From NCBI RefSeq assembly GCF_023115425.1, contig NZ_CP096032.1, forward strand, positions 992,001 to 1,056,000: DNA of 64,000 nt. The letters are read 5' to 3'. Position numbers and translations under genes: made by a program. Positions 3,787-21,752 of the stretch are shown here, in pieces. Origin of the DNA: Synechococcus sp. A10-1-5-1 (GTDB taxonomy: Bacteria; Cyanobacteriota; Cyanobacteriia; PCC-6307; Cyanobiaceae). Position 1 is the first letter of the stretch. Every line of letters begins with the position of its first letter. Under the pieces are notes generated by a model that saw nothing but the letters and a program-made list of their open reading frames with translations, had not been told where the DNA came from and did no database searches.

Positions 3787-4725
3787 CTAAACGGCAAACC
3801 CCGGATCGATGCGGCCCATCGCCTCGGCCGCTTTTGCGCAGAGCTCTTGGTGGCTGACGCCGTGGCTGGCAATCAGGCAACCGGCCTGACGCACGTCGCC
3901 GGTGTTGTAGCGGAGCGGTTCACCGTCGGCATGGGTGAAGGCCCCGCCGGCAGCCTTGAGCACGGCCTCCGGCGCCGCCATATCCCAGTCCTTCGGGGCA
4001 CTCTTGCCCGACAGTGAGATGTAGACGTCGGTCTCGCCACGCAGGATCGTGGCGACCTTGCCGCCAACGCTGCCGATGGCCTTGGTGTCGCCCAGGGCCA
4101 GAGCCTCCAGTAGCTGCTCCAGCCGCTGGTCCCGGTGGTTGCGGCTGGCCACCAGCACCATCTCCCCAAGGGCCTGGCGGGAACTGAGCTGGGCGGGCTG
4201 CTGCTCACCAGCGCGGTTCTCCCTCCAAGCCCGGCCCTGGGGCACCAGACCAAACCAGAGGTCCTCCAGCAGCGGTTGGAGCACCACCCCCAAGACGGCC
4301 TCACCGCGGTGAACCAGCGCCAGGTGCACGGCGTACTCGCCGGTGCCCTGCAGAAAATCCTTGGTGCCATCGAGGGGATCCAGGATCCAGAGCCACTCGG
4401 CATCGAGGGGCTCGCCTGCGGTGAGTTGCTCCTTGGCGGTCTCCTCGCTAAGGAGCGTCCAACCGGCCTCGGGATAGGCCTTGGCCAGCCCCTCGAGCAG
4501 CCACTGGTTCACAGCCAGATCCGCCGCACTGACGGGGCCCTCGCCCCCGTCATCAACACTCAGGGCCTTGGGAAAGCCATAGGGGGGCTGCTCACCGCGG
4601 CCATAAGCCAGCAAGATATCCGCAGCACCCCAGCAGAGTCGACGCAGGTCCGCCAACAGCTGCTTCTCCTCGATGCCAGGGGGAAAGCAGGCAGCGGCGG
4701 GCATCATGGAAGGGCAAAGGAGCAT
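3787..4725 (-). CDS. cysQ: CysQ-like inositol-monophosphatase-family phosphatase
   Basis: Metal-dependent phosphatase of the inositol monophosphatase superfamily, most like 3'(2'),5'-bisphosphate nucleotidases, which hydrolyse the PAP left over from sulfate assimilation. Visible: GPVSAADLAVN early, LLSEE, motif 1 DPLDGTKDF with the metal-binding Asp residues, and motif 2 WDMAAPEAVLKAAGG. About 300 residues is normal for the family. The start is uncertain: in-frame ATGs occur at 4725, 4707 and 4704, none with a good Shine-Dalgarno, and the family N-terminus makes 4707 or 4704 likelier. It is divergent from rsmI and their 5' ends nearly abut. Substrate (PAP versus another sugar phosphate) is inferred. 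Confidence 0.85.
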   Translation of the reverse strand: MLLCPSMMPAAACFPPGIEEKQLLADLRRLCWGAADILLAYGRGEQPPYGFPKALSVDDGGEGPVSAADLAVNQWLLEGLAKAYPEAGWTLLSEETAKEQLTAGEPLDAEWLWILDPLDGTKDFLQGTGEYAVHLALVHRGEAVLGVVLQPLLEDLWFGLVPQGRAWRENRAGEQQPAQLSSRQALGEMVLVASRNHRDQRLEQLLEALALGDTKAIGSVGGKVATILRGETDVYISLSGKSAPKDWDMAAPEAVLKAAGGAFTHADGEPLRYNTGDVRQAGCLIASHGVSHQELCAKAAEAMGRIDPGFAV

Positions 4726-4729
4726 TCTG

Positions 4730-5587
4730 ATGCAGGGCGCCGAACCCGCTGCAGGCGTGCTCTACCTGGTGGGCACACCGATCGGGAACACCGGAGATCT
4801 CTCCCCCCGGGCCAAAACCGTGCTGGCCGGGGCAGATCGGATCGCCTGCGAAGACACCCGCCGCAGCGGCCTGCTGCTGCACAACCTGGGCATCAAGAAC
4901 CGTTTGGTGAGCTTCCACGAGCACAACCAAGCCACCCGGATCCCGGAATTATTGGAGGCCTTGGAGAGCGGAGAGGCAATTGCTGTCATCAGCGACGCCG
5001 GCCTACCAGGCATCTCCGACCCCGGCGAGGAACTGGTGGCGGCAGCCCGCAGCCAAGGGCGCACCGTGATCTGCGTGCCCGGGCCCTGTGCCGCCACCAC
5101 CGCCCTAGTGAGCAGTGGGCTGCCCTGCGGACGCTTCTGCTTTGAAGGCTTCCTGCCGCCCAAAGCCACAGCACGCCGGGCGCGGCTCCAGGCCTTGGCT
5201 CAGGAGGAGCGGACCTTGGTCTTCTACGAGGCCCCCCACCGCCTGCTGGCGGTGCTCGAGGACCTGCTGGAACTCCTGGGGGATCGCCCGGTGGCCGTGA
5301 CCCGGGAATTGACCAAGCGCCATGAGGAGCAGGTGGGCCCGACCCTGACGGTTGCCCTGGAGCACTTCCGGCAGCACCCTCCCCAGGGCGAATTCACCCT
5401 CGTCCTCGACGGAGCTGAGATCAACGCTGCTGAGCGGCCCAGCGATGCCGATCTACGGAAGCAGCTGCAGGCCTTGGTCAGCGGTGGGCTCAGCAGCAAC
5501 GATGCCGCTCGCCAACTGGCCCGCAGCACGGGCATCGCCAAACGTGAGCTCTACGCTTTGCTGCATCAAGACGACGACACCCCCTGA
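4730..5587 (+). CDS. rsmI: 16S rRNA (cytidine-1402 2'-O)-methyltransferase
   Basis: SAM-dependent methyltransferase of the tetrapyrrole-methylase fold that 2'-O-methylates C1402 of 16S rRNA in the decoding centre. Visible: LYLVGTPIGNTGDLSPRA at the N-terminus, CEDTRRSG, SDAGLPGISDPGEEL and the VPGPCA segment. The ATG at 4730 is chosen because AAAGGAG lies seven bases upstream and the LYLVGTPIGN motif then starts at residue 11, as in the family. The stop codon overlaps the next start (TGATG), suggesting translational coupling with the small membrane protein. Confidence 0.95.
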   Translation: MQGAEPAAGVLYLVGTPIGNTGDLSPRAKTVLAGADRIACEDTRRSGLLLHNLGIKNRLVSFHEHNQATRIPELLEALESGEAIAVISDAGLPGISDPGEELVAAARSQGRTVICVPGPCAATTALVSSGLPCGRFCFEGFLPPKATARRARLQALAQEERTLVFYEAPHRLLAVLEDLLELLGDRPVAVTRELTKRHEEQVGPTLTVALEHFRQHPPQGEFTLVLDGAEINAAERPSDADLRKQLQALVSGGLSSNDAARQLARSTGIAKRELYALLHQDDDTP

Positions 5588-5829
5588 TGCTGCTGCGCCT
5601 GCGCTTGCTTCTGGCCAGCCTTGGAGGCGGGGTGCTGCTACTGCTGATCCTGTGCCTGGGGGCCCAGAACCTGGATCAACGGACGCGGCTGAACCTGGGG
5701 TTTGGCCGCACGGCTGAGCTCCCGACCGGATTCCTACTGGGGGTTTCACTGGTGCTTGGCGTCATCAGTGGCGGCGCCGCGACCGCTCTATTGCTGCCGG
5801 GCGGCGATCAGGCTTCTGAGAGGGAATAG
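5587..5829 (+). CDS. LapA-like (DUF1049) small membrane protein
   Basis: 80 residues with two hydrophobic segments (about 8-27 and 45-70) joined by a short polar stretch around NLDQRTRLNLGFG. This matches the LapA/DUF1049 pattern, in which an N-terminal helix ends near a conserved Asn and the second helix contains GVISGG. The family is poorly defined; in enterobacteria LapA/B proteins act in envelope homeostasis. Its start overlaps the rsmI stop by one base. The family call is by pattern and the role is unknown. Confidence 0.65.
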   Translation: MLLRLRLLLASLGGGVLLLLILCLGAQNLDQRTRLNLGFGRTAELPTGFLLGVSLVLGVISGGAATALLLPGGDQASERE

Positions 5830-13173: not shown

Positions 13174-14061
13174 TTGCCTCAGCGCTTTGGTGTTATCGGC
13201 TGTGGCTACGTGGGATCCGCGGTCTGCAAGAGACTTCGACTGGGCGGCCATGACGTTTTGGCGACCACCCGAGATCGGTCTCGCTTTGAAGCACTGAAAA
13301 ACCTGGGTGTTACGCCAGCGCTGCTCAACATCGCCTCTGACCAGGCGGACTTCAGCTTCATCGACCAACTCGACGGCCTCCTGATCAGCGTTGCGCCAAC
13401 ACGGAAAGACGAGAGCTACGAGGAGGTTTTCTCCAAGGGAATCAGCAACCTGGTTCAGGCTCTTCGGCAGCGTCCAGAGCAGAAACCACTGCACATCACC
13501 TACATCAGCACAGTTGGGGTTTTTGGAGACCAGGGCGGTCAAACCGTGAGCGAAGGATCGCCGCTTGACATCAGCCATCCCATCAACCGCCTACTGATCA
13601 ACGCTGAGCTGGCGCTTCAAGGGCTTCAGGGTGGCAACACAACCATCTGCACTCTCCGCCTAGGAGGCATCTATGGCCCTGGCCGTGACATGGTCTCACT
13701 CGTCAAGGACGCCGCTGGTCAACGCATCGCTCGCGATGGTGATCACATTCCGGCCTGGACTCACCTTGACGACATCACCCGAGGCGTTCAATTTGCCTGG
13801 GATCGCGATTTAAACGGCACCTTCAACTTGGTCGATGACATGCGCCTGAGCAGAAGGGAGCTCTCCAATGCCATTTGCGAACACATTGGCCTACCCCCTG
13901 TGATTTGGTGCGGTGCACCACGGGGTGCTCGCGTGGTCAACGCTGTGGTCTCCAACGCAAAAATCAAGCGCCAAGGCTTTTCTTTTCACTCTCCATCGAT
14001 GTTGCACCGACAGACATTGCAGAGGTCAGACCTCAGCCCACGGGTGAAAGCGCATTCCTGA
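13174..14061 (+). CDS. NAD(P)-dependent epimerase/dehydratase-like protein (extended SDR)
   Basis: 295 residues. Rossmann start PQRFGVIGCGYVGSAVCKRL with GCGYVGS at 9-15; ISTVGVFGD and the segment RLGGIYGPGRD later are typical of atypical extended SDRs of the YeeZ type. The usual YxxxK is not obvious, so catalysis as a classical dehydrogenase is uncertain. It starts with TTG at 13174 without a clear Shine-Dalgarno; no ATG nearby fits the Rossmann start better. It lies 120 bases upstream of, and on the same strand as, the methyltransferase operon, but the AT-rich gap suggests a separate promoter for that operon. Confidence 0.75.
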   Translation: MPQRFGVIGCGYVGSAVCKRLRLGGHDVLATTRDRSRFEALKNLGVTPALLNIASDQADFSFIDQLDGLLISVAPTRKDESYEEVFSKGISNLVQALRQRPEQKPLHITYISTVGVFGDQGGQTVSEGSPLDISHPINRLLINAELALQGLQGGNTTICTLRLGGIYGPGRDMVSLVKDAAGQRIARDGDHIPAWTHLDDITRGVQFAWDRDLNGTFNLVDDMRLSRRELSNAICEHIGLPPVIWCGAPRGARVVNAVVSNAKIKRQGFSFHSPSMLHRQTLQRSDLSPRVKAHS

Positions 14062-14181
14062 TCAAAAAGGTCAGAAATAAATTCCACTGAGAAAAACATT
14101 TCAAGAAAGAATATTTAATCAAAATCAAGGCTGAATGAATGCTTCAAAGCACTGATTTCTGACGTTGTACGTTGATTCCAG

Positions 14182-15234
14182 GTGCTGTTGAAATCGATGG
14201 CCATTGCGATGACCACGGGCTACAGCTCACAGACTGAGGGGGCTCTGCTTTGCATTGAAGCTGCTTCTGACTGGGCATTGAGCTGTGTGGACAGCCTGGC
14301 GGGCGATCGCCATTACATCCTGATCGACTACGGCGCTGCCGACGGAGGAACGGCCGTCGGGCTCTGGCAAAAGGTGCTGGACCGGCTTCATGCCAACCAC
14401 CCCAATGCACACCTCACGCTGATCGGCAACGATCTACCCAGCAACGACAACCAAGCACTCGCAGACAACCTGGCCCTGCAAATCCCAAGGCCACCCAAGC
14501 CGACGGTGCTCGTGAGTGCCCGCAGTTTTTATGAACCATCCGTCGCCCCTGAGACGGTCAGTTTTGGCTTTTCAGCCACGGCAATGCACTGGCTGAGTGC
14601 CTCGCCGGGGCCCCTCAACACCCACACACACGTCTTGGCCTCAGGAGATGACGAAGCTCTCCAGCGCTTCAAGGCCCAAGCCATGAAGGACTGGAATCAC
14701 ATCCTTGAGCTCCGCAGCCGCGAGCTCAAGGTCGGGGGGCGCTTGCTAACGGTCAACCTCTCGCGCGATGAGCAGGGGCTCTACCTCGGAGAGAACGGAG
14801 GTGAAACCAGGAATGTTCACGACCAACTTCACGAGATCTGGCGAGGTATGGCCGAAGAGAAGCTGATCAGCGAGGAGCAGTACCGCAGCGGCACGGTCAA
14901 CAACTTCTACAAGTCCCCCGAGGAATTCATGGCTCCTCTGAAGGATCCCAACTCTCCCGCCCATCGAAATGGGCTGCGACTCGTCGACCAACGCACCGTC
15001 TATGTGAAGTGCCCGTACCGGCGCCGGTGGAAAGAGAACGGTGATACGGCCGCCTTCGCAGCGGGACTCATGGCGACCATTCGCAGCTGGAGTCGCCACA
15101 GCTTCGCCAACGCGGCCGGTACTCAAGCCGCTGACATGGTTTACCAGCGATTGGAGAAACGCATCGCGGAAGCACCGGATGAGTGGAGCCTCGACTACGT
15201 CGAGCACCACCAAATGATGGAGCGCGTGGGCTGA
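14182..15234 (+). CDS. SABATH-type carboxyl/N-methyltransferase
   Basis: SAM-dependent methyltransferase of the SABATH group, which methylates carboxyl or ring-N groups of small molecules (salicylate, indole-acetate, xanthine in plants). Visible: SAM-binding segment YILIDYGAADGGTA, LIGNDLPSND, and SFGFSATAMHWLS, matching the family's FSxxxLHWLS substrate-pocket motif. After it come GGRLLTVNLSRDE and YKSPEEF. The 350-residue length is normal. Starts: GTG at 14182, ATG at 14197 or 14209; AGGTG at 14180-14184 favours 14197. The stop overlaps the next start (TGATG). First gene of a compact four-gene unit. The substrate is unknown; family assignment is by motif. Confidence 0.8.
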   Translation: MLLKSMAIAMTTGYSSQTEGALLCIEAASDWALSCVDSLAGDRHYILIDYGAADGGTAVGLWQKVLDRLHANHPNAHLTLIGNDLPSNDNQALADNLALQIPRPPKPTVLVSARSFYEPSVAPETVSFGFSATAMHWLSASPGPLNTHTHVLASGDDEALQRFKAQAMKDWNHILELRSRELKVGGRLLTVNLSRDEQGLYLGENGGETRNVHDQLHEIWRGMAEEKLISEEQYRSGTVNNFYKSPEEFMAPLKDPNSPAHRNGLRLVDQRTVYVKCPYRRRWKENGDTAAFAAGLMATIRSWSRHSFANAAGTQAADMVYQRLEKRIAEAPDEWSLDYVEHHQMMERVG

Positions 15235-16295
15235 TGGTGTTATCGACAACAGCGCCGCCGGATGTGTCGGTGCTGTCGCAGCATGTCTCGCCGCACCTCT
15301 CGGTCTTCATTGTTGGAGAGACGACCCACCCGGGTCGCCCCGCCAATGGCGGGCTTCGGCTACTTCCGTACTCCAGCGATGACGCCTGCATCGCCGATGG
15401 TCGACGGCTCGCAGCACTGATGACACACAAACACGATCTCTACGGCACCGGCTTCGCGGGCGGAAAAATTGTGGCGCGCGCGGCCGATCTCGACGCCGTC
15501 AAAGACGAGCTCATTGGAGTCACCGCAACACTCCTTGAGTCCCTGGATGGAGCGATGGTGACTGGGTGTGATCTCAACACAACCCTGGAGGACATGGAGC
15601 GTCTAACGACGCTCACGCCCCATGTCCTGGCCGCAGTCGGCAGTCCAATCGATGCGAGTGCGGCAACAGCCCATGGGACGCTTGGTGCCGTGGAGGCCGT
15701 CTTGGGCGAGACGCTGGCAACAGCCGAACCAGGTCGGGCTCTGGTGCATGGCTGCGGAGCGGTGGGTGGAACGGTGGCCCGCTCTCTGGTGGATCACGGC
15801 TGGACGGTGTTCACAATGGATCACTATCGCGACCGCGCCAGATTCCGTGGAGCCACCCCACTTCCCGCAAATTGTTCATGGTGGGAATTGGACCTTGATC
15901 TGCTGCTTCCTTGTTCAATCTCCAGGCTGATTGATCAAGACATGACTGAAGCGCTGCGTGCCAGAGCCGTGGTGCCGGCTGCCAATGCTCCATTTCATGA
16001 GGCCCATCTCGCTGAGGAGCTGCGCCAACGAGCAATTCCTGTACTGCCCGACCCCCTGGTCAATGCAGGCGCGGTCATCGCCGACTCAATCGAGCGCTTC
16101 TCTCCAGATAGCTGGCGGCAAGCTGAAGCGGATGCGGTCTATTCCTTTGTACGCGAGGAAATCCGTAACCGCTCTGATGAGTACTTGCAACAGCGCAAGA
16201 GAGGAGCATCAGCACACACAGCCCTGGGCACCGTCGCCGCAGGCTCTGAGGGACGACCGATTGGTCTGAGCTTCAGAGGAAGGCATGATCCATGA
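15234..16295 (+). CDS. Leu/Phe/Glu-dehydrogenase-family (ELFV) enzyme
   Basis: 353 residues resembling leucine dehydrogenase, an NAD-dependent oxidative deaminase. The dimerisation/catalytic domain shows GGLRLLPYSSDD, MTHK and AGGK, which supply the two lysines of the family, and GCDLNTTLEDM, matching the catalytic-Asp segment (DVGTTVEDM in leucine dehydrogenase). The NAD domain has ALVHGCGAVGGTVARSL, and VVPAANAPF matches the A-N-N-x-L-like region. Start is the ATG at 15234, overlapping the methyltransferase stop by one base; the next gene overlaps by four. Active-site residues look intact, so it is probably an active amino-acid dehydrogenase. Which amino acid it uses is open. Confidence 0.82.
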   Translation: MVLSTTAPPDVSVLSQHVSPHLSVFIVGETTHPGRPANGGLRLLPYSSDDACIADGRRLAALMTHKHDLYGTGFAGGKIVARAADLDAVKDELIGVTATLLESLDGAMVTGCDLNTTLEDMERLTTLTPHVLAAVGSPIDASAATAHGTLGAVEAVLGETLATAEPGRALVHGCGAVGGTVARSLVDHGWTVFTMDHYRDRARFRGATPLPANCSWWELDLDLLLPCSISRLIDQDMTEALRARAVVPAANAPFHEAHLAEELRQRAIPVLPDPLVNAGAVIADSIERFSPDSWRQAEADAVYSFVREEIRNRSDEYLQQRKRGASAHTALGTVAAGSEGRPIGLSFRGRHDP

Positions 16296-17476
16296 CATCC
16301 ACCGTCCCCAAGAGCGTCAGCGTCCTGATCCTGGGTGGAGGCATGGCCGGCCTCAGTTCTGCCGCTGCCCTAGCGAGACAAGGAATCACCGATGTCCTGC
16401 TGCTTGAAGCAAAGACCCTCGCCCATGCCCAAGCCAGCAGCTTCGGTGAGACTCGGATGTTCCGGGAGATGTACTCCGATCCAGTGCTCTGCGAGCTGGC
16501 TCAAGCCGCAAATCAACTGTGGATGAAAGAAGAACAAGAGGCTGGAGTCCCGCTCAGGGCAACCCATGGATTGCTCTTCTACGGCGAAAGCTGGGAAGAG
16601 GAAACCATCGAAGGCTCGATCCCTGGGGCCCGCCGGGTCATGGATGAGCAGGGCATTCCCTACGAAGCACTCTCTTCGGCAGAGATCGCGGCACGGTTTC
16701 CGCTCAAGCCAAAACATGAGTTCACAGGACTCTTCGAACCCACGGCCGGAGCTGTGCGCAGCGACAGGGTCATTGCGCACTGGTGCCAAACAGCTCGGGC
16801 CGCAGGACATCAACTCCTGGAGCACACCCCTGTAGAGAGCATTGACTCTGATGGACGCGGCGTGACCCTCAAACAAGGGCAACACATCAGGGCCGATCAA
16901 CTGGTGATCGCTTGTGGAATCTGGAGTCAACAGCTGCTCGCCCCCCTCGGGCTACAGCCAAAACTTGAGATCTGGCCGATGCTTTGGGCGCATTACACGG
17001 TCGATCCAGCGCTGGCAGATCGCTATCCCCAATGGTTCTGTTTTCAACAAGAACGTGGTGATGACGGCGGCCTCTATTACGGCTTCCCCGTTTTAAGCCA
17101 CACCCCTGATGGGCGTCCCAGGATCAAGTGTGGAATCGATTGGACACCAAAGGAACTGCGTGTCCATGAACCAGGCTTGATGCAGAGGGATCCTCCAGCT
17201 CGATTGGTTGAACTCTTGGATCAATTTCTCTTCAACGAGCTCGAGGGCATCCAAGATCGCATGGAGACTGTCATGAGCCCCTATTCAATGACCGAGGACG
17301 TGAATTTCGTTCTCGATCGCATCACGCCAACCATCAGTCTCTTCTGCGGGGGGTCAGGACAGTCCTTCAAGTTTGCCCCCTTAATTGGCGACTCCCTTGC
17401 GCGCTTCGCGAGTGGTCAACAACCAGCTGTTGATGTCAGCTGCTGGAGCCATCAACGACCTGCCGTCACTGCATAA
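16292..17476 (+). CDS. Sarcosine/N-methyltryptophan-oxidase-like FAD enzyme
   Basis: 394-residue flavoprotein of the MSOX/SolA family, which oxidatively demethylates N-methyl amino acids to give formaldehyde and peroxide. Visible: dinucleotide motif LILGGGMAGLSSAAALA at 12-28, ASSFGETRMFREMY matching the family's SHHGDTRxxR region, and CGGSGQSFKFAPLIGD near the C-terminus. At the place where MSOX and SolA carry the cysteine that binds FAD covalently (V-C-M-Y-T), this protein reads M-S-P-Y-S, so covalent attachment by that cysteine is lost. ATGA overlap with the dehydrogenase gene; five bases before the transporter gene. The substrate is unknown. Confidence 0.85.
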   Translation: MTSTVPKSVSVLILGGGMAGLSSAAALARQGITDVLLLEAKTLAHAQASSFGETRMFREMYSDPVLCELAQAANQLWMKEEQEAGVPLRATHGLLFYGESWEEETIEGSIPGARRVMDEQGIPYEALSSAEIAARFPLKPKHEFTGLFEPTAGAVRSDRVIAHWCQTARAAGHQLLEHTPVESIDSDGRGVTLKQGQHIRADQLVIACGIWSQQLLAPLGLQPKLEIWPMLWAHYTVDPALADRYPQWFCFQQERGDDGGLYYGFPVLSHTPDGRPRIKCGIDWTPKELRVHEPGLMQRDPPARLVELLDQFLFNELEGIQDRMETVMSPYSMTEDVNFVLDRITPTISLFCGGSGQSFKFAPLIGDSLARFASGQQPAVDVSCWSHQRPAVTA

Positions 17477-17481
17477 GCGTT

Positions 17482-19071
17482 TTGCCTGATCTCAAAAGAC
17501 AACCACAACCTGACATCACCCCACGGGACGTTCCCTGGCTGAAACAGCCACCCCTCTGGGTTGGTTCTATCCCACTACTTCTGTTTCTGCTGATCGCAGC
17601 GGTGGATCTGGAACTCGCCAGGACTTTCACCAGCAATGGCAAAACAATCATCAGCCAACACATCGGTGGCCTCTGGCAGTGGCTGGTGCTCGCGGTGTTC
17701 CTCGTGGCCATGGGCCTGGCGATCAGTCCCATCGGATCAGTGAAGCTGGGGGGAGCCGGAGCCAAACCAACCATTCGTTTTTTTGATTGGTGCGCAGTCC
17801 TGATCTGCACACTGCTGGCGGGTGGAGGGGTGTTCTGGTCTGCCGCAGAGCCTCTGTTCCACTTCCAATCTCCAGCTCCCTACTTCCCACAAATCACTGG
17901 GGGCAGCTCAGAAGCCGTTGATCCGGCGCTGGCCGTGAGCTTTCTGCATTGGGGGTTTTTGGCTTGGGCACTGGTGGCGACCACAGTGACCATCACCTTC
18001 TCAATGCTGGAGAAACGGGGGGAGCCCCTGCGGCCTCGTTCACTGCTGGTGGGGGTCCTCCCAAGGGCTTGGGTGGATGGAGCTGTTGGTGATTTCGCGG
18101 ATGGGCTCTCGGTCGTCGCCGCTGTTGCGGGCACCGTCGGCCCTCTGGGCTTTCTCTCCCTGCAACTGAGTAATGCAGCTGGACAGCTGCCATGGCTCAG
18201 CGACAGCGCTGGTTTGCAATCCCTCGTGGTGATCTTGCTCACAGCGGTGTTTGCCACCTCCACAGTCAGTGGAATTCAGCGCGGCATCAAATGGCTCTCT
18301 GAGTTGAACGTTGTACTCACCCTTGGGCTGGCGGCAGCAATCCTTTTGGTTGGCCCAGGGCTCTGGCTGCTTCAGCATTTCCTGAGTGCAATGTTGCTCT
18401 ACATCAACGAGTTGCCCGCGATGGCCCTGGCGAGCAACAACGCCGAGCAAGCCGGCTGGTTGAACGGTTGGACCATTTTTTATTGGGGTTGGTTTCTGGG
18501 TTATGCCCCACTCATGGGGCTGTTCACCGCCGGGGTCAGCCGTGGCAGAAGCATTCGGGAGCTGGTACTGGCGGTGGCCATCCTCTGTCCACTCGTGACC
18601 AATTTGTGGTTCACCCTGCTGGGGGGCACGGGAATCGCCCTGGAGCTCGCCGATGCTGGTTCCATCAGTGGGCCGCTTCAAATGAGCGGAGCGGCGGCTG
18701 CCTTATTGGCGATCCTCAGCCAACTGCCTCTGGCCTGGCTGTTAATCCCAACGGGACTCCTACTGGTGGTTCTGTTTATGGCCACCAGCGCTGATTCGAT
18801 GAGCTACGCAGCGGCCATGGTGGTCAGTGGAGAGCGCGAGCCCGCCCCGTTACTGCGATTGTTCTGGGCCCTCATGATCGGCAGTCTCACCCTGGTGCTG
18901 CTTCGAATCGGAACAAGCCTGGGCGACAGCACGTCCATTGACGCGCTGCAGGCCTTCATCGTCATCGCGGCAGTTCCTGTCACACCACTGGTGCTGTTGA
19001 GTCTCTGGAGCGCACCGCGGCTGGCCTGGAGAGAGTGGGCTAGCACCAGTCGAGCAACAGCTAGGCCATAA
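17482..19071 (+). CDS. BCCT-family transporter
   Basis: 529-residue secondary transporter with about twelve membrane segments. The betaine/carnitine/choline transporter signature is clear: GWTIFYWGWFLGYAPLMGLF followed by AGVSRGRSIREL, with FHFQSP early and FMATSADSMSYA late. BCCT proteins carry quaternary ammonium compounds (glycine betaine, choline, carnitine) using Na+ or H+, or by exchange. The first gene-start codon is TTG at 17482, five bases after the flavoenzyme stop, with no clear Shine-Dalgarno, so coupling is likely. The context suggests that its cargo is the substrate or product of the three upstream enzymes. Confidence 0.93.
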   Translation: MPDLKRQPQPDITPRDVPWLKQPPLWVGSIPLLLFLLIAAVDLELARTFTSNGKTIISQHIGGLWQWLVLAVFLVAMGLAISPIGSVKLGGAGAKPTIRFFDWCAVLICTLLAGGGVFWSAAEPLFHFQSPAPYFPQITGGSSEAVDPALAVSFLHWGFLAWALVATTVTITFSMLEKRGEPLRPRSLLVGVLPRAWVDGAVGDFADGLSVVAAVAGTVGPLGFLSLQLSNAAGQLPWLSDSAGLQSLVVILLTAVFATSTVSGIQRGIKWLSELNVVLTLGLAAAILLVGPGLWLLQHFLSAMLLYINELPAMALASNNAEQAGWLNGWTIFYWGWFLGYAPLMGLFTAGVSRGRSIRELVLAVAILCPLVTNLWFTLLGGTGIALELADAGSISGPLQMSGAAAALLAILSQLPLAWLLIPTGLLLVVLFMATSADSMSYAAAMVVSGEREPAPLLRLFWALMIGSLTLVLLRIGTSLGDSTSIDALQAFIVIAAVPVTPLVLLSLWSAPRLAWREWASTSRATARP

Positions 19072-19130: not shown

Positions 19131-19364
19131 ATGACTAACCTGAATCCCATGCAGAGTCAGCCGATGAACGTTAGACAATCTCGCGATTACCTCCAACAGA
19201 AGCGAAGAGAAATCAGGAAGCAGGGCCTCTTAACCAACGAAGTGTTGACCAAAAAGCAGGGACAATTCAGCCAGGAGAAGGGCACCACAGCTCAACAATC
19301 CAAGGTCTCCAGACTATGGGACCGTTTCGCAGAACAAGTCAGTGCTGTGGTGAGCAAGGACTAA
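19131..19364 (+). CDS. Small basic hypothetical protein
   Basis: 77 residues, Gln/Lys/Arg-rich helical protein (RQSRDYLQQKRREIRKQG, then a C-terminal amphipathic SRLWDRFAEQVSAVVSK). AAGGAG lies at 19108-19113, rather far from the ATG at 19131. No family recognised. It lies 59 bases after the transporter and may be read from the same transcript. Confidence 0.5.
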   Translation: MTNLNPMQSQPMNVRQSRDYLQQKRREIRKQGLLTNEVLTKKQGQFSQEKGTTAQQSKVSRLWDRFAEQVSAVVSKD

Positions 19365-20672: not shown

Positions 20673-21752
20673 ATGGCAACATTGACAACAAAGAAACGCC
20701 TACTCAGGAATGGCAAAGCCTTCTCGGAATGGATTACTTCAACGAAGCAGCGAATTTACATCGGCTGGTTCGGCGTCTTATTCATCCCGACGGCACTGAC
20801 AAGCGCCATCGCATTTGTACTCGCAATACTGTGCGCTCCAGTGGTCGATATTGACGGAGTTCGAGAGCCGATCAGCGGAGCCTTGCTCGATGGAAACAAC
20901 ATCATCACAGCCGCAGTTGTTCCAAGCTCGAACGCCATAGGCTTGCACTTTTATCCATTGTGGGAAGCCACAAGCATCGATGAGTGGCTTTACAACGGAG
21001 GACCCTATCAGCTCATTGTCCTCCACTTCCTCATTGCAATCACAGCCTATTTAGGGCGCCAATGGGAATTGAGCTACCGCCTAGGAATGCGCCCATGGAT
21101 TGCCATTGCGTTTTCAGCTCCCTGGTCTGCAGCAATGGCTGTTTTTCTTGTTTATCCCATGGGTCAGGGATCGTTCTCCGATGGAATGCCACTGGGGATT
21201 TCTGGCACCTTTAATTTCATGCTGGTCCTGCAGGCCGAACACAATGTGCTCATGCACCCATTGCACATGCTCGCCGTTGCAGGCACTTTTGGAGGCTCAC
21301 TCCTTGCTGCACTGCATGGATCTCTCGTAACCAGCAGCCTAGTGCGAGAGACCACGGAAGCAGAATCAATCAACCGCGGCTATGCATTTGGGCAGAAAGA
21401 AACCACATACAATTTAGTGGCTGCACATGCATATTTTGGCCGCCTTGTATTTCCCTATGCAGCATCAGATAACAGCAGAAGTATTCATGCCATTCTGTTT
21501 GCATGGCCAACCATTGGAATTTGGTGCTCATCACTGGCCGTAGCTTCCTTTTCCTTCGGTCTCAATGGATTCAATTTCAACCAATCCATACTCGACACCC
21601 AAATGCGAACCATCAACAGCTGGGCAGACGTCCTGAATCGAAGCAACCTTGGGATTGAAGCAATCCATGAGCGGAATGCACATAATTTCCCCCTCGATCT
21701 CGCATCATCTGAAACGTCCTACATCGCTCTATCTCGATCCATTGAAGGGTAG
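20673..21752 (+). CDS. psbA: Photosystem II D1 protein, divergent isoform
   Basis: 359 residues whose numbering matches standard D1 without gaps. Donor side is intact: D59, D61, Y161 (TyrZ), D170, E189, H190, H332, E333, H337, D342 and A344, with a 15-residue C-terminal extension for processing. Chlorophyll and iron ligands H118, H198, H215 and H272 are present. Q130 is the low-light (D1:1) type. Departures are unusual: G80A, Y147F, F211L, E244T, G253A, Q261P, S264A, F265S, N266D, F285C, T286S. Many of these lie in the QB, bicarbonate and acceptor-side regions. A GGAGGA site precedes the ATG. Clearly a D1 of oxygenic type, but not the standard housekeeping copy; condition of expression is unknown. 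Confidence 0.95.

Follow-up and report, generated by a model that had tools for sequence, protein, structure and literature searches.

What would a cyanobacterium do with a methyltransferase, an amino-acid dehydrogenase, a flavin oxidase and a transporter encoded side by side? The question is raised by four genes of Synechococcus sp. A10-1-5-1, whose genome is a single contig of 2.40 Mb (NZ_CP096032.1). They lie within positions 992,001 to 1,056,000, a stretch of 64,000 nucleotides that was analysed whole and is called the window below. An earlier note had proposed that the genes make or break down a methylated amino-acid or betaine-like compound, perhaps an osmolyte. Our analysis kept the single functional unit and the betaine-like compound and sharpened the proposal to biosynthesis, with homarine (N-methylpicolinate) as the best candidate: the four genes are likely to be a conserved operon for making homarine from lysine and for transporting it.

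In the proposed pathway, the enzyme of the Glu/Leu/Phe/Val (ELFV) dehydrogenase family would deaminate L-lysine oxidatively at C2, and the resulting keto acid would cyclise spontaneously to piperideine-2-carboxylate (P2C). A NikD-like flavoenzyme would then use O2 in a four-electron oxidation of P2C to aromatic picolinate, and a SABATH-family enzyme would methylate the ring nitrogen of picolinate with S-adenosylmethionine (SAM), yielding homarine. The product would be a zwitterionic betaine and probably a compatible solute, and the BCCT protein would take it up or recover it.

Conservation of the gene set

The four genes run on the same strand, with a 1-base overlap between the SABATH and ELFV genes, a 4-base overlap between the ELFV and flavoenzyme genes and a 5-base gap before the BCCT gene, and the open reading frame (ORF) coordinates agreed with the layout first described. 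The four family assignments also held, with Pfam scores above the cut-offs (in brackets) for Methyltransf_7 in the SABATH protein at 74 bits (29.8), ELFV_dehydrog at 57 bits (23.4) with its N-domain at 28 bits (25.3), DAO in the flavoenzyme at 147 bits (27.9) and BCCT at 430.5 bits (27).

Synteny in other cyanobacteria had been set beforehand as a test of the unit, and it was found. Scanning of named genome contigs with an alignment of the flavoenzyme gave 37 loci, and 30 of these had the complete set of four in an unchanged order, including some loci that run into a contig end; strains WH7803 (L024) and RCC307 (L041) were among them. Contig ends cut another four loci (L020, L053, L054 and L055), and the other three had the enzyme trio but no BCCT gene, namely those of Okeania hirsuta (L051) and Microbulbifer (L052 and L056, the latter with its SABATH gene cut by the contig end). 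Clustering of the trio also extended to a Myxococcales metagenome-assembled genome (MAG; L050), which holds all four genes in order at 46-53% identity. When 149 relatives were searched with the ELFV protein, six strong matches besides the window were obtained, and the remainder were weak (at most 36 bits); five of the six had the full set of four in that order, and the sixth, in genome G053, was an ELFV gene alone.

Profiles of the three enzymes were then run against 271 genomes of the family, each at least 90% complete. With the flavoenzyme profile, 52 genomes scored above 500 bits, and below these came a 63-bit piece of a split gene in G217 and then, among the matches listed, scores under 30 bits. 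The SABATH profile found the same 52 genomes plus G330, and the ELFV profile the same 52 plus G053, so that all three enzymes occurred together in 52 genomes and any two without the third in none. The carriers were 1 of 14 genomes of the window's genus, 17 of 19 in group g5, all 24 in g34, all three in g24, the single genome of g25 and 6 of 87 small genomes in g17. In samples extended to the phylum (386 genomes in all) and the class (388 in all), flavoenzyme matches outside the family reached at most 169 bits and ELFV matches, in seven genomes, at most 140 bits; these samples did not include the Okeania-type trio and say little about rare carriers.

Several isolated or broken copies were seen. 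The G053 ortholog (L019, 7549-8673) has 58% identity, keeps the pocket residues N38 and D284 described below and has no SABATH, flavoenzyme or BCCT gene nearby; it is possibly a relic or reflects another use of the dehydrogenase. The distant SABATH match in G330 (C9, 450281-451132; 75 bits) is interrupted by an in-frame TAG, and the other genes are missing from that genome. In otherwise intact enzyme operons, the SABATH gene is split in two in G205 and G348, as is the flavoenzyme gene in G217, which may represent recent decay or sequencing error.

The lone gene of G053 is what could be expected if the genes were neighbours by chance or history and shared no pathway. We consider this hardly credible, because the three enzymes are found together in 52 genomes and as a pair in none, the order is fixed and the set recurs in distant groups with other flanks. 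We read the neighbourhood as one conserved unit.

The smallest form of the unit was found in six genomes of Prochlorococcus size (g17), which carry a SABATH-ELFV-flavoenzyme cluster. No BCCT match was present in the 15-16 kb around the trio at any of the six loci; neighbours were listed for four of them, one annotated, and another carrier may exist nearby. This minimal unit argues for synthesis. At one of these loci (L088), the sequence about 1.2 kb downstream of the trio contains a small hydrophobic ORF.

Predicted reactions of the three enzymes

The direction of the pathway depends largely on the flavoenzyme, which the earlier note had called MSOX-like, after a family that oxidises N-methyl amino acids. 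The superfamily was right. In a single-sequence search, the closest solved relative was NikD at 117 bits (7e-33), with sarcosine oxidase next at 116, and a structure model (mean predicted local distance difference test, pLDDT, 86.7) also placed NikD first by a narrow margin (E 6e-36 versus 9e-35 for sarcosine oxidase). Since neither comparison separates the two, the assignment leans on profiles and residues. Profile comparison gave 189 bits for NikD, 165-145 for sarcosine oxidases and 139 for N-methyltryptophan oxidase. When 10 orthologs from five groups were aligned with NikD, two sarcosine oxidases and E. coli SolA, the NikD residues Glu101 and Asp276, which we take to be active-site carboxylates, were kept in all 10 orthologs (E107 and D283 in the window), whereas the sarcosine oxidases and SolA have Ser and His there; the Asp stands in place of the MSOX active-site His269 (MSOX numbering). 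Both active-site Arg residues, Tyr258 and Lys358 are also kept as in NikD, including the Arg/Lys pair that binds the substrate carboxylate in MTOX, MSOX and NikD according to the accessible text of PMC6222107. Compared with MSOX and MTOX, the enzyme shares the fold, the carboxylate-binding Arg and Lys and the oxygen-site Lys, in which it differs from NikD; it departs from them with Asp for His269, Glu for the Ser at the E101 position, Gln for His345 and mostly Ser for the covalent Cys.

An NikD-like enzyme, rather than a demethylase of N-methyl amino acids, implies a biosynthetic direction. In the opposite direction, the BCCT protein would import an N-methylated amino acid or betaine, the flavoenzyme would demethylate it and the ELFV enzyme would deaminate it. 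Membership in the MSOX-like, ELFV and BCCT families would suit such turnover, but it leaves no place for a methyltransferase, it does not fit the small genomes, whose trio had no BCCT match within 15-16 kb, and the NikD-type carboxylates found where sarcosine oxidase has its histidine speak against it. We regard catabolism as quite improbable.

A close known parallel to the proposed synthesis is the nikkomycin branch of Streptomyces, in which the lysine 2-aminotransferase NikC and NikD lead from L-lysine through P2C to picolinate; the origin of P2C from lysine via the aminotransferase is given in the accessible text of PMC4021061. The route would be alike, and the oxidase is the nearest solved relative, with the carboxylates, both Arg residues, Tyr258 and Lys358 in common. 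In contrast, the operon has an ELFV dehydrogenase in place of the aminotransferase, and picolinate, activated to the coenzyme A (CoA) form in nikkomycin synthesis, would be methylated.

Several observations weigh against a NikD-type reaction. Identity to NikD is only about 27%, and NikD Trp355, which we also take to be an active-site feature, is Gln in all 10 orthologs. The Cys321 that holds flavin adenine dinucleotide (FAD) covalently in NikD is Ser in eight of 10 and Cys only in the two Microbulbifer sequences (L052 and L056), so FAD is probably non-covalent in the cyanobacterial enzymes. The alignment around the E101 column has gaps, and the unrelated homolog of G101 also has Glu in this column; the best NCBIfam match was N-methyltryptophan oxidase (PRK11259), at 185 bits under a cut-off of 257; soxA_mon gave 147 bits under a cut-off of 480. 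Finally, partial oxidation of P2C has been proposed for an Amycolatopsis homolog of NikD in the accessible part of PMC11446937, so full aromatisation is not given by the family. Because the covalent Cys and Trp355 are not kept, we class the enzyme as NikD-like rather than as NikD, with four-electron oxidation of P2C as its predicted reaction. The next-best flavoenzymes of the phylum sample, in G101 and G658, do not keep the Asp276 position (each was read with approximate ends and contains one stop), and the 16 kb around them gave no match to SABATH or ELFV; in G101, a BCCT-like gene (34-36% identity) lies alongside.

The ELFV enzyme keeps the catalytic residues K66, K78 and D113 and, at the end of the second strand, the NAD-type Asp196. 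It shares its domains and these features with leucine, phenylalanine and tryptophan dehydrogenases and differs from them in a side-chain pocket with Asn38 and Asp284 and in its proposed substrate, L-lysine. Both pocket residues occur in all 10 sequences compared, including that of G053, which lacks the other genes, whereas E. coli GdhA has Lys and Ser there; the Lys presumably binds the side-chain carboxylate of glutamate, with Ser as its partner. An acidic residue at this place fits an ammonium side chain, which points to L-lysine (or ornithine). The alignment of D284 is free of gaps against GdhA and 7vid, but against this assignment it is shifted by two residues relative to leucine dehydrogenase 8gxd, and the pocket is thus a lead, not proof. 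It is compatible with, and suggests, an L-lysine 2-dehydrogenase that would give P2C.

A pathway based on tryptophan would assign the enzymes differently: a ScyB-like ELFV enzyme, a flavoenzyme acting on a tryptophan derivative and a SABATH enzyme methylating an indole acid. The best NCBIfam matches of the ELFV protein and the flavoenzyme are indeed ScyB and N-methyltryptophan oxidase, and the plant indole-3-acetic acid (IAA) methyltransferase 3b5i is a SABATH enzyme. However, ScyB scored 85.5 bits against a cut-off of 600, the oxidase also fell short of its cut-off, the ELFV pocket is polar and acidic and the flavoenzyme profile favours NikD, which makes a tryptophan pathway very improbable. 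Picolinate could also arise through kynurenine. This route was rejected for the host, whose genome gave no match to tryptophan dioxygenase while the controls were positive; a search of the same genome for 3-hydroxyanthranilate dioxygenase also gave no match, but none of its controls matched either, and it is uninformative.

For the SABATH protein, a structure model (mean pLDDT 81.1) retrieved only SABATH structures from Foldseek down to rank 29. It shares the Methyltransf_7 domain and the fold with mycobacterial FAMT, plant SAMT and the caffeine N-methyltransferases, and it differs from solved members in its sequence (12-23% identity) and in its proposed acceptor, picolinate. Plant trigonelline synthases belong to the same family. 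The first-ranked structure, FAMT, is a fatty-acid O-methyltransferase, which weighs against N-methylation. On the other side, Ala21, invariant in all 11 orthologs, aligned with the Gln of the N-terminal Y-x6-Q motif of 8wwq (in one pairwise alignment). We take this Gln to bind the acceptor carboxylate; the operon enzyme lacks this marker of the carboxyl O-methyltransferase subgroup. We propose that the enzyme would methylate picolinate on nitrogen rather than on oxygen. We know of no lysine 2-dehydrogenase or pyridine N-methyltransferase described in bacteria.

Carriers and homarine in marine strains

The operon's BCCT gene was the only BCCT match in the host genome. The protein matches the family over its full length, like DddT, BetP, CaiT and BetT, and scored 294 bits with the NCBIfam model betaine_BCCT of the glycine betaine subgroup, short of the cut-off of 650. 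It differs from the FYWxWW motif of DddT by having Phe338 in place of the second Trp of WW; this Phe is invariant in six Synechococcus-type copies and is also found in the myxobacterial MAG. In Okeania, a gene for an OpuAC glycine-betaine-type binding protein (L051, 8371-9432) lies beside the trio where Synechococcus has the BCCT gene; OpuAC, ELFV and SABATH are on one strand and the flavoenzyme faces them on the other. Because two unrelated families of betaine carriers adjoin the trio, a betaine product is suggested, and homarine would be their cargo. In Microbulbifer (L052), an MFS transporter gene (4414-5799) precedes the trio and perhaps secretes the product. Marine Synechococcus also combines methyltransferase and betaine transporter genes in the GSMT/SDMT synthesis of glycine betaine with ProVWX (in the accessible text of PMC2874817), a system with other enzymes, another precursor and another betaine.

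Homarine itself is known from these organisms. Both Synechococcus strains tested contain it according to the accessible text of Heal et al. 2021 (PMC8269262), and the correction (PMC10134881) puts the content at up to 18 mM across these two strains, with WH7803 at about 0.2 mM. WH7803 is the one strain for which the four-gene operon and homarine are both on record. In WH8102, the richer producer by roughly 90-fold, BetT (SYNW0229) belongs to an operon SYNW0229-0233 (Mao et al. 2010, PMC2874817), the other four genes of which were taken as possible transporter subunits in the part of that paper accessible to us. Its range and order are consistent with BCCT, flavoenzyme, ELFV, SABATH and Ham1. 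Three points count against linking the operon to homarine: in WH7803, the full gene set goes with about 0.2 mM where up to 18 mM was recorded, and gene content is thus no guide to the amount; the WH8102 comparison uses a published operon range; and Heal et al. considered, in the accessible text, an origin from tryptophan or quinolinate.

The carriers and the strain data also bear on an alternative that keeps the first two steps and changes the product to methyl picolinate (by O-methylation), to an ornithine-derived pyrrole- or pyrroline-2-carboxylate or to a compound whose oxidation stopped before the aromatic ring. The O-methyltransferase as best solved SABATH relative, a pocket that could accommodate ornithine as well and the partial oxidation proposed for Amycolatopsis would agree with such products. 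We nevertheless consider them unlikely: BCCT and OpuAC point to a quaternary, zwitterionic product, an invariant Ala takes the place of the motif Gln seen in geniposidic acid O-methyltransferase (8wwq), and the product of the lysine route, homarine, is known in WH7803.

Homarine is without a characterised biosynthetic route in the accessible text of Heal et al. 2021, and genetic information on its synthesis is lacking in that of Boysen et al. 2021 (PMC8269247). Pipecolate appears among lysine catabolites in metabolomics of marine Synechococcus and Prochlorococcus (PMC10100731, accessible part). The earlier note had known of no pathway with this gene set, and we likewise found none in the open-access literature, nor a published homarine pathway or earlier mention of one; recent, subscription or preprint reports could be missed. 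The accessible parts of the salinity literature on Synechococcus held no mention of the four genes.

Genomic setting of the window copy and implications

The features of the operon are collected in the table. The leader was described as AT-rich at the outset, and its G+C content is indeed 32.5% compared to 62% across the window; only about 0.016% of 120-bp segments (step 10) reach a value as low. It is the probable promoter region of the operon, and a scan of it gave no match to the sigma-70 consensus. The SABATH gene can start at the GTG at 14182 or the ATG at 14197, and since the ortholog alignments begin at the latter Met, translation may start there. The 370-aa ELFV ORF first listed begins 51 bases too early, and the coupled start is the ATG at 15234.

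Table. Features of the operon and residues discussed in the text (positions in the window)
Feature	Position	Strand	Basis
AT-rich leader, probable promoter region	14062..14181	+	G+C; between SDR-like gene and operon
SABATH-family SAM methyltransferase, proposed picolinate N-methyltransferase	14182..15234	+	Pfam, alignments, fold
Ala21 at N-terminal motif Gln position	14242-14244	+	alignment to 8wwq
ELFV dehydrogenase, proposed NAD-dependent L-lysine 2-dehydrogenase	15234..16295	+	Pfam, residue alignment
Side-chain pocket N38	15345-15347	+	alignment
Side-chain pocket D284	16083-16085	+	alignment
NikD-like flavin oxidase, proposed piperideine-2-carboxylate to picolinate	16292..17476	+	profile, residues, fold
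E107 (NikD E101)	16610-16612	+	alignment
D283 (NikD D276)	17138-17140	+	alignment
S329 at covalent-FAD Cys position	17276-17278	+	alignment
BCCT transporter, proposed homarine uptake/retention carrier	17482..19071	+	Pfam

Elsewhere, the operon usually has other neighbours. A Ham1/phosphomannomutase pair adjoins it in 29 of the 35 Synechococcus-type loci examined, and five of the six without the pair are cut on that side; a 489-aa gene is commonly found on the opposite side. The sixth locus, L016 in genome G048, carries the operon off this usual site, with neither the pair nor the flanks of the window, and the four small-genome loci tested also had neither set. Among the 39 related loci compared, each 4-17 kb long, none had the window flanks (the SDR-like gene and psbA) next to the operon. 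The suggested added member, the SDR-like gene at 13174, was dropped, as it had no match at E ≤ 1e-10 in any of these. Because the site differs in the window, and 13 of the 14 genomes of its genus are without the operon in profile searches, the four-gene block appears to have been relocated or transferred as a whole. Location and patchiness suggest transfer; it is not proved by the tree, in which the grouping of this copy with UW140/UW105 is weak (support 0.69).

Downstream of the operon on the same strand are a 77-aa ORF (19131-19364) without a Pfam match and a divergent psbA gene (20673-21752). The D1 protein encoded by the latter has 70-72% identity to the six other D1 copies in the genome, five of which match it equally, and looks like a special-purpose D1.

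Each enzyme family is already known. What would be new, as far as we know, is their combination, along with the lysine dehydrogenase and the pyridine N-methyltransferase. We think it fairly likely that the operon is a genetic route to homarine, the first of its kind, in the form of a module of three enzymes with exchangeable betaine carriers in marine Synechococcus, some Prochlorococcus-size genomes and a few other bacteria, and that it comprises a new ELFV L-lysine 2-dehydrogenase, a NikD-like picolinate synthase and a SABATH pyridine N-methyltransferase and provides a bacterial source of homarine. Homarine has been counted as one of the abundant osmolytes in particles of the surface ocean, at values later corrected about 25-fold down to at most 0.25% of particulate carbon. 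If the proposal is true, it would account for a source of this widespread marine betaine in bacteria and connect the osmolytes and labile nitrogen of cyanobacteria with their lysine metabolism. The operon could then serve as a marker that shows who produces homarine, and when, in metagenomes and transcriptomes, and the pattern of its presence and absence gives sharp predictions for culturable strains.

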